DNA from: Sphingomonas ginsengisoli An et al. 2013
GTDB taxonomy: Bacteria > Pseudomonadota > Alphaproteobacteria > Sphingomonadales > Sphingomonadaceae
Assembly (NCBI RefSeq): GCF_009363895.1
Contig: NZ_CP045434.1
Location: 2,808,501 to 2,872,500 of the forward strand
Length of the DNA: 64,000 nucleotides
Direction of reading: 5' to 3'
Positions 3,913 to 7,090 of this stretch are shown here, one piece after another; the stretch's first letter is position 1; every line of letters starts with the position of its first letter. The notes under the pieces were generated by a model that saw nothing but the letters and a program-made list of their open reading frames with translations, made no database searches and had not been told where the DNA came from. The translations under genes and the position numbers were made by a program.

Positions 3913-4530
3913 TTATAGTTGCGAAGAGTCCATTCCGAGGTGCTCGCGGAGCGTGGCGAAGGTGCGGTTGGCGGCGGCGATGGCTTGGGTGCGGTCCGCC
4001 GAAGAAATGGCAGCGTCGAGGTAGTCGCGGACGTCGCGCCAGTGGGCGGCGGTCGCCTTGCCGTAGCTGCCGTGGAAGGCGGGTTCGAAGCCCAAGCGGT
4101 CGCGGACGTGGGCGGCGATGAGCTGGCCGCCGAGGGTTGAGCCTTCGAGGACGTAGAAAGCGCCGAGTGCCTCGGCGCGGGTGGTGAAGGGATAGGTCGG
4201 GGCGGCACCCAGCGGGCCGGGCGCGCTCCCGAGCGCGGCGAGGTCGCGCTCGAGCAGCGGCAGCTTGCGGCGGGGATCGACGAAGGCGGGGTCGGCAATG
4301 GCGGCGGCAAGCGCCGGCTCCCAGACGGCGTAGAAGGCGTGGAGGCGGGCGAGCCAGGCGGCGTAGGTCGCACGGTCGCCTGCCCAGTTCGTCCAGTCGA
4401 GCGCATCCTCGATCCGGTCGTGCTCGGCGCGGGTGCCCTCGCGCAGCAGGTCGGCGACGGCGGTCAGCGGGTCAGGTCCGGACGGTGAAGCAGGCGCCCT
4501 GGTCGCGGTCGTGGTCGACCTCGAGCTCAC
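3913..4530 (-). CDS. bphO: Biliverdin-producing heme oxygenase (BphO type)
   Basis: 205-aa bacterial heme oxygenase that opens heme to biliverdin, CO and Fe2+. The proximal heme ligand is probably His37 in TRAEHDRIEDAL, and the distal helix with its Gly-rich kink is YVLEGSTLGGQ. GTG at 4530 is the only usable start before the conserved domain, so the gene overlaps the 3' end of the phytochrome gene by 59 nt and is translationally coupled to it. That supplies the bilin chromophore next to the protein that binds it. The first 20 residues are a variable, Ser/Thr/Pro-rich extension. Confidence 0.93.
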   Translation of the reverse strand: MSSRSTTTATRAPASPSGPDPLTAVADLLREGTRAEHDRIEDALDWTNWAGDRATYAAWLARLHAFYAVWEPALAAAIADPAFVDPRRKLPLLERDLAALGSAPGPLGAAPTYPFTTRAEALGAFYVLEGSTLGGQLIAAHVRDRLGFEPAFHGSYGKATAAHWRDVRDYLDAAISSADRTQAIAAANRTFATLREHLGMDSSQL

Positions 4531-7090
4531 CGTCGATCTGCTTGAGCAGCGCGCGAATGACCCGCATGCCGAGCCCGCCGCTCTCGCGCTGGCGGGTCTC
4601 CCAATCCTCGGCCAGCCCTTCGCCCTCGTCGCACACGACCAAAGTCAGCTTGCCCTCGGGACCGCCGCGCAGGATCAGCTGGACCGGGCCGGTCCGCCCC
4701 CCCGGATAGGCATATTTGATGGCGTTGGTGACGAGCTCGGTGGCGATCAGGCTGAACGCGACCGCGGTGGTGCTCGACACCAGCAGATCCTCGTCGACGT
4801 CGACCTCGACCACGCCCTCGCGGCTCTGCACGCCGAGCGCGAGGTCGGCGCAGAGCTGACGCAGCGACTCGCCGAGATTGACCATCTGGTCGTCGCGCGC
4901 CTGGAGGCTGTCGTGGACTCGGGCGACGCTCATCACCCGCGCGTAGGTGTCCTGGAAAGCGGCCTTGGCCTGTTCGTCGGCGACCTGCCGCGACTGGAGC
5001 AGCATCACGCTGGCGACGATCTGGAGCGAATTCTTGACCCGGTGGTCGATCTCGCGCGCGAGCAGGTCCTTCTTCTCGAGCGCGTCGGCGAGGTCGCGGC
5101 TCTTGGTCCTCAGTTCGGCGATCTTGCGGCCCTGGCGGAGCGCGACCCGCTCGACCGCGGTGGCGAAGGCGGTGGCGGCATCGATCTGCCATTCCTCCCA
5201 CCGTTCGGAGCGGCCCGCGCGCTCCTCGACCCAGCGTTCGAACGAGCGGCGGGGGAGGACGGTGCCGGTGGCACTGTCGGCGAGCACCTTCTCGTTCGGA
5301 TCGCCGCCCCACACGACGGTCGAGGTGATCTGCGGCTTGAACCACAACAGAAGGTTGCGGCGGCCGGCGTCGATGAACACCGCCAGCAGCCCCGCGGCCT
5401 GGTCGCGCCAGCGTTGCGCCTCGGGCCAATGTTCGGAAAGGTCGGCGGTGACAAAGGCGCGGTTGTCCGGGGCGACCTCGCCGCGCAGCCAGTCGGCGAG
5501 CGCCAACAGCGACTGGATGTCAGGGGTGTGACCGACGGTGGCGACGCGCTCGCCGCTGATCACCGCCGCGCCGGTGCTGCGGAACAATTGGCCGAGGCTC
5601 ACGCCGTCGCGCGGGGCGAGCGTGGTGACGAAATCCTCGGCGCCGGCGAGCTGACGGAGCAGGGCGTTCTGCTGCTCAAGGCTGTCCTGCTGCTCGGCCC
5701 AGGCCAAGGTGGTGGCAAGCTCATGGACACGCAGCGCGAAGCCGTCGGTCACCAAGGTCGCCAGCGCGCGGGTCGGTGGGGTGACGTAGTGGGGGCGGCG
5801 ATGATGGCCGATCACCAGTCCCCACAGCTTCCCGTCGACCACGATCGAGATCGACATCGAACCGTTAACCCCGAGGTTGCGCTGATATTCGAGGTGGATG
5901 GGCGACAAGGCGCGTGAATAAGCGAGGCTGAGGTCAACGGGCGTATTGCCGGCCTGCGGGCGGGCGACCAGCGCGGCGGGCACCGCGTCGCGATCGACCA
6001 CGAAGCGGGCGGGGGCGTTGACGTAGAGGGCGCGGGCCTGGGCGGGGATGTCGGAGGCGGGGAAGCGCAGGCCGAGCAGCGAGGGGTAGGCGTCGGGATC
6101 GCGGTCCTCGGCCACCGCCTCGCCATTCCACTCCTCGTCGAAGCGATAGACCAGCACTCGCTCGAACCCGGTCATCGCGCGAACGTGCCGCGCGCATTGC
6201 TGGGCGGCGGCGGTTAGCGAGGGCGTCTTGCGGATCTCGAGCACCGCGTCGAGCGCCTGATCGGCCGAGGCTTCGGCGAAGTCGCCCGCCTGGTCGGGCA
6301 GCATCTCGAGCTCGACGATGAGGCGGTCGGCCTTGAAATGGACGGCGACCGCGAAGGGGCGCTTCTCGGGCCCAAGCGGGGAGGTGGTTCGCCACGGCCG
6401 TCCAGGGGAAGCGTCGGCGCCGTGCGCGCGGACATTGGCGATGCCAGCGATTATGAAAGGCGGGAAGAGGGTCGCCGCTGACTGACCGACGACGTCGCCG
6501 GAGGCGCGGCCGAGTGCGTCGGCGATATTGTCGCTGCAGGCAACGATCTCGTCGGTGGCGGGATCGATGACGACGGCGGCGGTGTGCGGCTGGACCGCGC
6601 CGGGGATGTGGATCGGCTCGAGCGCGCAGACGTCGGCGTCGACCGGCTCGGCACGAACCCGGCGGTCGACGGCATCGGCCGCAGCGAGCGCGGCGCGTCG
6701 CTGCGGGCTGGCCGCCATGAAACCGAGCTGGCGGACGAGCAGCCAGTAGCGCCCGGCCTCGGCGGCAGCGCGCATGGTCACCTCAACCCGCGCCGGCTCG
6801 TCGAACCCGAAGACGAATCCGAACACCGAGTCGAGATTGCCGCGGCGGACCCCGTCGAGGAAGCGACCGCGGAAGGAGGGCAGGTTGGTGCAGGGCGCGA
6901 CGTCGCGGAAGAAATCGCGACCGAGCACGCGTTCGCGCTGGCGGCCCGAAAAGCGGCTTTCGGCGGCGTTATACTTGTGGACGATGCCGTGCGCGTCGAC
7001 CTGGATGACGCCGAACGGCAGCGCGTCGAGCTGCTCGTCGCTCAGGCCGTCGGGCGTCAACGCCTGCTCTTCTTGCTCGGCCAACCACAC
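4472..7090 (-). CDS. Hybrid photoreceptor: PYP domain + bacteriophytochrome + HWE/HisKA_2 histidine kinase (Ppr-like)
   Basis: 872-aa light-sensing kinase. Residues 16-122 match photoactive yellow protein, including Tyr40, Glu44, Ser48, Arg50 and chromophore Cys67 in DVAPCT (equivalents of Y42, E46, T50, R52, C69 in Halorhodospira PYP). A bacteriophytochrome core follows: bilin-attachment Cys155 just before EPIHIPGAVQPH, GAF with PASDIP (Asp347) and SPIHLEY (His399), and PHY tongue WGGDP (594-598) with PRRSF. The kinase has phospho-acceptor His683 in EIDHRVKN and ATP-binding N and G boxes (N789, DEGEG 821-825). The GTG at 7090 touches AAGGAA; a TTG two codons later has ideal spacing and may be the true start. 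No response regulator, tyrosine ammonia-lyase or coumarate ligase lies nearby. Confidence 0.93.
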   Translation of the reverse strand: MWLAEQEEQALTPDGLSDEQLDALPFGVIQVDAHGIVHKYNAAESRFSGRQRERVLGRDFFRDVAPCTNLPSFRGRFLDGVRRGNLDSVFGFVFGFDEPARVEVTMRAAAEAGRYWLLVRQLGFMAASPQRRAALAAADAVDRRVRAEPVDADVCALEPIHIPGAVQPHTAAVVIDPATDEIVACSDNIADALGRASGDVVGQSAATLFPPFIIAGIANVRAHGADASPGRPWRTTSPLGPEKRPFAVAVHFKADRLIVELEMLPDQAGDFAEASADQALDAVLEIRKTPSLTAAAQQCARHVRAMTGFERVLVYRFDEEWNGEAVAEDRDPDAYPSLLGLRFPASDIPAQARALYVNAPARFVVDRDAVPAALVARPQAGNTPVDLSLAYSRALSPIHLEYQRNLGVNGSMSISIVVDGKLWGLVIGHHRRPHYVTPPTRALATLVTDGFALRVHELATTLAWAEQQDSLEQQNALLRQLAGAEDFVTTLAPRDGVSLGQLFRSTGAAVISGERVATVGHTPDIQSLLALADWLRGEVAPDNRAFVTADLSEHWPEAQRWRDQAAGLLAVFIDAGRRNLLLWFKPQITSTVVWGGDPNEKVLADSATGTVLPRRSFERWVEERAGRSERWEEWQIDAATAFATAVERVALRQGRKIAELRTKSRDLADALEKKDLLAREIDHRVKNSLQIVASVMLLQSRQVADEQAKAAFQDTYARVMSVARVHDSLQARDDQMVNLGESLRQLCADLALGVQSREGVVEVDVDEDLLVSSTTAVAFSLIATELVTNAIKYAYPGGRTGPVQLILRGGPEGKLTLVVCDEGEGLAEDWETRQRESGGLGMRVIRALLKQIDGELEVDHDRDQGACFTVRT

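Follow-up and report, generated by a model that had tools for sequence, protein, structure and literature searches.

A PYP-bacteriophytochrome-HisKA_2 kinase of Sphingomonas ginsengisoli: a known architecture with a candidate stress-response output

Can a single histidine kinase read two colours of light through two different chromophores, and to which pathway would it report? The question is raised by a gene in a 64,000-nucleotide stretch of Sphingomonas ginsengisoli DNA (contig NZ_CP045434.1, positions 2,808,501 to 2,872,500; here called the window), for which the original prediction had claimed a photoactive yellow protein (PYP) domain, a bacteriophytochrome and a kinase in one 872-residue chain. 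Domain searches agree with this claim. The protein is genuine and well preserved, and it belongs to an architecture already in print rather than to a new kind. We consider that it may function as a blue and red/far-red two-chromophore photoreceptor kinase whose most likely output is the PhyR-NepR-EcfG general stress pathway, and we give this reading a probability of roughly 0.55. Papers are cited by PMC identifier. The features of the locus are as follows.

4472..7090, minus strand: PYP-bacteriophytochrome-HisKA_2 histidine kinase gene (ppr), 872 codons from the GTG at 7090; 870 amino acids in the database prediction
6728..7051, minus strand: PYP domain, residues about 14-121, with pocket residues Tyr40, Glu44, Ser48, Arg50 and Cys67 and without Met100
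6305..6628, minus strand: PAS_2 domain of the phytochrome, residues 155-262, its first residue being the bilin Cys155
5744..6217, minus strand: GAF domain, residues 292-449, with a PASDIP motif
5132..5674, minus strand: PHY domain, residues 473-653, with a PRRSF motif
4841..5053, minus strand: HisKA_2 dimerisation and phosphoacceptor domain, residues 680-750, with His683 in HRVKN (683-687)
4478..4756, minus strand: HATPase_c domain, residues 779-871, from the domain search
3913..4530, minus strand: heme oxygenase (BphO-like) gene, PF01126, sharing 59 bases with the kinase gene provided that it starts at GTG 4530

From the N terminus, the protein consists of the PYP domain, a short linker, a PAS_2-GAF-PHY phytochrome core (155-653), HisKA_2 and HATPase_c. 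A search against phytochrome profiles had been proposed as a check; PAS_2, GAF and PHY all exceeded their Pfam cut-offs, as did HisKA_2 (72.5 bits) together with HWE_HK (32.4 bits). When the whole protein was searched against solved structures, the top chains were bacteriophytochromes, with E-values for phytochrome cores down to 5.5e-80. The PAS-GAF-PHY arrangement, the N-terminal bilin Cys and the DIP and PRxSF motifs identify the module as a bacteriophytochrome; its score with NF041576, the BphP equivalog model, was 286, below the cut-off of 1040. Cys155, His683 and Asn687 were invariant in all 40 aligned sequences, and every residue named in the original prediction (Tyr40, Glu44, Ser48, Arg50, Cys67, Cys155 and His683) was found where it had been placed. 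A chance frame in GC-rich DNA was ruled out by full-length database relatives and by the ratio of non-synonymous to synonymous substitution rates (dN/dS).

The N-terminal domain was found to be nearest to true PYPs. Its closest solved PYP was that of Rhodospirillum centenum Ppr (PDB 1mzu, E = 8e-38), ahead of Halorhodospira halophila proteins, and all 33 chains listed in the solved-structure search with the PYP part were PYPs or derived from PYP. These matches and the TIGR02373 match rule out an ordinary PAS domain, the outcome that had been expected to undo the prediction. Tyr40, Glu44 and Cys67 align to Tyr42, Glu46 and Cys69 (H. halophila numbering), the PYP triad. Purifying selection was estimated by comparison with a congener, G905: dN/dS was lowest in the PYP segment (0.165, 109 codons), followed by the kinase (0.181, 213 codons), PAS-GAF-PHY (0.204, 501 codons), the linker (0.243, 32 codons) and the heme oxygenase (0.355, 180 codons). 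The PYP domain is under strong constraint. Because Ser48 occupies the Thr50 position, the alignment suggests PYP absorbance at about 434 nm; Ser at position 50 accompanies about 434 nm in two characterised PYPs (PMC12826048).

The original prediction had noted that the loop before M100 is one residue shorter. This detail is wrong: the missing residue lies at the Met100 position, and Met100 itself is lost (DE-P versus QMTP). We compared position 100 across 118 fusions with an HRxxN-type motif, an uneven sample drawn from best-match lists and leaving out P0071 and P0085 (no PYP), P0118 (kinase motif unmatched by the pattern) and P0122 (no kinase part). Among these listed matches, Met was present at position 100 in none of the 118 HisKA_2-type fusions versus all seven HisKA-type phytochrome fusions (P0125-P0131). 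The triad was intact in 58 of the 118; of the remainder, 59 lack Cys69 and one has Cys69 without Glu46. In the 58 listed intact fusions, position 100 is occupied by Pro (48), Glu (7) or Gln (3), and 21 intact proteins, the window's included, are one residue shorter there. Met100 has been proposed as the catalyst of chromophore re-isomerisation (PMC9664959) and as a candidate site at which colour or photocycle may be tuned in nature (PMC12826048). Since Met100 is missing, the PYP domain would be expected to reset slowly. Too simple a view of this residue is discouraged by at least four decayed proteins (P0096, P0101, P0107 and P0109) with a Met one alignment position earlier and by P0124, in which a HisKA kinase carries its PYP at the C terminus, phytochrome is absent and Met100 is likewise missing.

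The partner gene matched PF01126 at 34.9 bits (cut-off 23) and no NCBIfam model. A PF01126 match adjoining a bacteriophytochrome gene is what characterises BphO. GTG 4530 is the sole ATG, GTG or TTG of its frame ahead of the conserved region, and counting from it the kinase gene overlaps its own heme oxygenase gene, as had been claimed; the G905 frame likewise starts with GTG. In relatives, the overlap measured from the first ATG, GTG or TTG of each frame was 26 bases in G905 and 22 in Sphingomonas jatrophae (G084); of three Methylobacterium loci, two (not L011) had an overlap of 4 bases. Heme oxygenase genes adjoining such fusions were reported in 2022 and described as always near them (PMC9664959).

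The kinase belongs to the HWE/HisKA_2 class and carries HRxxN, as Paks do. Its best-named match was PhyK (NF051872; 103 bits, far below the cut-off of 750), and when the kinase part was compared with solved structures, the top four chains all bore the name blue-light-activated histidine kinase. In Sphingomonas, the targets of Paks are SdrG and PhyR (PMC5898713); in Brucella, PhyR phosphorylation is under the control of an HWE-family LOV kinase (PMC8092228); and the class drives the alphaproteobacterial general stress response (PMC5898713, PMC12148442). The Pak, PhyK and LOV-HK kinases thus share the class of the window's kinase, and some of them are light sensors; light enters through LOV domains in those papers, as opposed to PYP and phytochrome here (PMC5898713, PMC8092228, PMC12148442). 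The S. ginsengisoli genome (one contig, 3.04 Mb, completeness 100) contains one PYP match, one PHY match and seven HisKA_2 matches, this kinase included. At a locus about 95 kb away, PhyR, NepR and an EcfG-type sigma factor are encoded together with another HisKA_2 protein, which we read as PhyT-like by its position and hydrophobic start; two EcfG-type promoter matches were found in that locus versus 0.15 expected. The proposed link to PhyR is drawn from kinase class and genome content.

In the mechanism that we favour, the heme oxygenase encoded alongside would supply biliverdin, which the phytochrome module would bind at Cys155 and use to sense red/far-red light, and the PYP domain would bind p-coumarate at Cys67, sense blue light and probably reset slowly. 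Both light signals would act on the single HisKA_2 kinase (His683), which would most likely pass phosphate to PhyR-NepR-EcfG, directly or via an SdrG-type regulator. Biliverdin binding appears very likely and p-coumarate binding likely; we lean towards a slow reset, and the PhyR pathway is put forward tentatively as the kinase target.

Several results weigh against this mechanism. For PYP identity, TIGR02373 gave residues 14-121 a score of 124 bits, below its curated cut-off of 143, and R. centenum Ppr a score of 200 bits; since the model matches only 20% of BLAST-found PYP homologues (PMC9664959), missing the cut-off is weak evidence. The triad is non-intact in 60 of the 118 related proteins, and PYP is therefore dispensable in sister lineages. 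For Met100, whose loss strongly slows recovery in H. halophila PYP, a literature search on M100A returned nothing. The genome contains no tyrosine ammonia-lyase (TAL) by a PF00221 search. On the output side, the EcfG-type promoter pattern is nowhere matched exactly in the window (1.03 expected), the list of frames holds no response regulator beside ppr, and HisKA_2 class alone is no proof of PhyR as the target. The supports of the phytochrome trees described below are SH-aLRT values from a quick search.

The output could instead lie outside the stress response, the two-colour kinase acting on another regulator or on a chemotaxis-like system, an output of the kind suggested for R. centenum Ppr (CheW, chalcone synthase). 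The kinase domain of that protein binds CheW (PMC2993699), and the window's kinase gene is an orphan without an EcfG-type promoter match around it; however, R. centenum Ppr differs in its kinase class (HisKA), and PhyR, NepR and the EcfG-type sigma factor are all present in the S. ginsengisoli genome, in which chemotaxis genes were not searched for. We consider this alternative unlikely.

The supply of p-coumarate bears on a second alternative, which we judge quite unlikely: that the protein is a functional bacteriophytochrome kinase whose intact PYP is mostly without chromophore, because p-coumarate cannot be produced by the host, the domain acting instead as a fold, as a dimer contact or in sensing p-coumarate from outside. 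The original prediction had noted no TAL nearby, and this extends to the whole genome: PF00221 has a single match, HutH-type, which scored 645 versus the hutH equivalog cut-off of 539 and thereby excludes an overlooked TAL. This lyase is not known to act on tyrosine. Nor was a coumarate or feruloyl ligase label seen in the 25 best families of each of nine AMP-ligases, out of ten PF00501 matches (the 120-codon L094 was excluded), although a model for it may be missing. Sister lineages also keep the phytochrome while their PYP is degenerate or absent. Against these points, Tyr42, Glu46 and Cys69 are kept together in the 58 intact fusions listed, the PYP segment has the lowest dN/dS versus G905, and TAL beside pyp is rare generally, at 5% of predicted pyp operons (PMC12826048) or, counted over the genes of functional PYPs, 10% or more (PMC9664959). 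The p-coumarate would have to come from outside or from an unrecognised enzyme. Among other genomes, G905 has one PF00221 lyase of near-equal score; no lyase match was found in the genomes of G084 and L011, both with a decayed PYP, nor in that of L012. Where a single-domain PYP scored above cut-off, four genomes out of five had such a match; these genomes are too few for a trend. The HutH-type lyase gene itself (L002, 1462-2994) has no obvious hut partner in a 4.4-kb frame list, no dedicated search having been made.

A bolder version, which we regard as distinctly improbable, is a conditional two-colour stress switch. Since the host has no TAL, the blue channel would depend on uptake of p-coumarate, for instance of plant origin, to become armed, and since Met100 is missing, the PYP would stay lit for long; a PYP-phytochrome pair already in place would have gained the HisKA_2 kinase, or lost it, by exchange. 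If this were true, PhyR-EcfG output would reflect red/far-red light, recent blue light and phenolics from plants as integrated by the kinase.

Returning to the photoreceptor kinase that we favour, its N-terminal PYP, phytochrome and HWE/HisKA_2 kinase in a single chain place it in the PYP-Phy-HWE-HK group of PMC12826048. That paper counted PYP-phytochrome-kinase proteins, HWE-type included, in 2025, and HWE-HK is listed 37 times in its Table 2. This group and methylobacterial Ppr (PMC9664959) have the same order of PYP, phytochrome and HWE/HisKA_2 kinase as the window protein. Methylobacterial Ppr also has a heme oxygenase nearby, as at the window locus; its gene is in an operon with a DLD gene (PMC9664959), whereas no DLD frame was seen in the window operon. 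Many listed Methylobacterium fusions lack the p-coumarate pocket that the window protein keeps. The label "Ppr-like" in the original prediction holds for the hybrid of PYP, bacteriophytochrome and histidine kinase, which R. centenum Ppr (P0126) shares, and fails for the kinase class. R. centenum Ppr has a HisKA kinase (PF00512), Met100 and the higher TIGR02373 score given above; with HisKA_2 and no Met100, the window protein is not a Ppr in the R. centenum sense.

Maximum likelihood trees of phytochrome cores were built. Rows were a chosen subset of proteins (32 of 131), loci (17 tried, of which L116 gave no frame and L119 and L120 were unused) and ordinary phytochromes from 190 class genomes, one collection scan (10 of its 57 loci) and the order search, with no GGDEF-type Ppd. 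Tree 2 (59 rows, no bootstrap) omitted three rows with very long branches (L114, L115 and L118) and added three phytochromes and the G905 protein. It placed all 33 rows of the PYP-fused set on one side versus 26 other phytochromes (SH-aLRT 100), with the R. centenum Ppr core inside the fused group and the 26 HisKA_2 rows forming one group (SH-aLRT 99). Tree 1 (58 rows, the three long rows included) gave the same picture, except that L114, a long row that had not been called PYP-fused, was placed with the fused rows. That HisKA and HisKA_2 fusions form one group apart from the 26 ordinary phytochromes suggests that PYP and phytochrome were joined once, with the kinase class changing later. P0071 and P0085, members of the PYP-fused set now without a PYP match, lie inside the fused group, so PYP can be lost; in P0071 the phytochrome is immediately preceded by a start that looks natural. 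In a kinase tree (31 rows), the fusion kinases formed one group (98); the other rows include long branches, and nothing further is drawn from it. Three HRxxN phytochrome kinases without PYP from another genus of the family (L172-L174 in regions L176-L178; genomes G952, G945 and G924) have phytochrome cores outside the PYP-fused group of tree 2.

The fusion gene is rare in the sampled genomes. Named sources among the best 120 of 3328 protein database matches were Sphingomonas lenta, S. jatrophae, Roseomonas, Belnapia, Paracraurococcus, Roseicella, Lichenihabitans and many Methylobacterium; within the same best 120, identity to the window protein is 49-59% for those named as coming from Roseomonas, Roseicella and Methylobacterium. 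The S. lenta homologue (P0014; 64% identity) has the same architecture and keeps the pocket. That of S. jatrophae (P0041; 54%) shares the architecture but, unlike the window protein, has lost Tyr42, Glu46 and Cys69. With these two relatives already in databases and the architecture published (PMC12826048, PMC9664959), the original prediction, which knew of none described in Sphingomonadales, is not supported on this point. In the family, 17 of 397 genomes had a TIGR02373 match with E no higher than 1e-3. Clear scores on long frames came from two of them, the window's genome and G084; six others had frames of 117-158 codons, and the remaining nine matches were weak. In the order, the whole protein matched five of 396 genomes at E up to 1e-100; the PYP part was included only in the window's genome and G905 (78% identity), the other three, from one other genus, having a phytochrome kinase without PYP. 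In the class, TIGR02373 matched 47 of 385 genomes; of the clear matches, that in the window's genome alone is a PYP opening a long frame. A scan of a contig collection gave 57 loci, of which three, all Methylobacterium, matched the whole fusion.

At the G905 locus, the flanking genes are the same except for a small Sel1-repeat gene without a match there. A stretch of another congener, G794, contained only one of 11 tested window genes, the neighbouring protease gene, and says nothing on an empty site. Base composition gave no signal of horizontal import (70.3% GC for the ppr-heme oxygenase block versus 68.1%, sd 1.9, for 3.2-kb window pieces).

The main texts of PMC12826048 and PMC9664959 contain no word beginning with "sphingom" and no mention of "general stress", and "PhyR" is absent from that of PMC9664959. 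A literature search combining PYP, bacteriophytochrome and Sphingomonas found no paper, a wider one found no such fusion in titles or the start of abstracts among the 15 of 76 papers listed (most subscription papers lay outside it), and one combining bacteriophytochrome, general stress response and PhyR found no such fusion by title. A 2019 Erythrobacter litoralis study on light and the stress response, which PMC8092228 cites, is said to involve, perhaps, a phytochrome kinase.

Both family papers name the signal output of PYP receptors as a gap (PMC12826048, PMC9664959), and this clade offers a concrete, testable output, PhyR-EcfG. Added here are the Met100-free clade, one sensor pair with two kinase classes, PYP constraint without TAL and a specific output hypothesis. 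The clade provides a chance to test the role of Met100 in nature, and the 58 intact versus 60 decayed PYP domains on similar receptors, among the matches listed, form a natural set. With its small one-contig genome and single PHY and PYP matches, S. ginsengisoli would be a convenient host.

Other PYP-like domains were seen in passing. Six short frames in Sphingomonadaceae genomes (L070-L075; G317, G140, G029, G134, G112 and G286) contain a PYP-like domain scoring 58-72 bits; five of them (not L074) keep Tyr42, Glu46, Cys69 and Met100, with AQC for APC and no Trp119, a pattern similar to clade C of PMC9664959. In P0124 and in L128 (G740), the PYP lies at the C-terminal end of a longer frame. 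Two further alphaproteobacterial genomes have frames of 664 and 590 codons (L126 and L127) with a C-terminal PYP-like domain in which Gln replaces Glu46 and the Cys is preceded by Ile.

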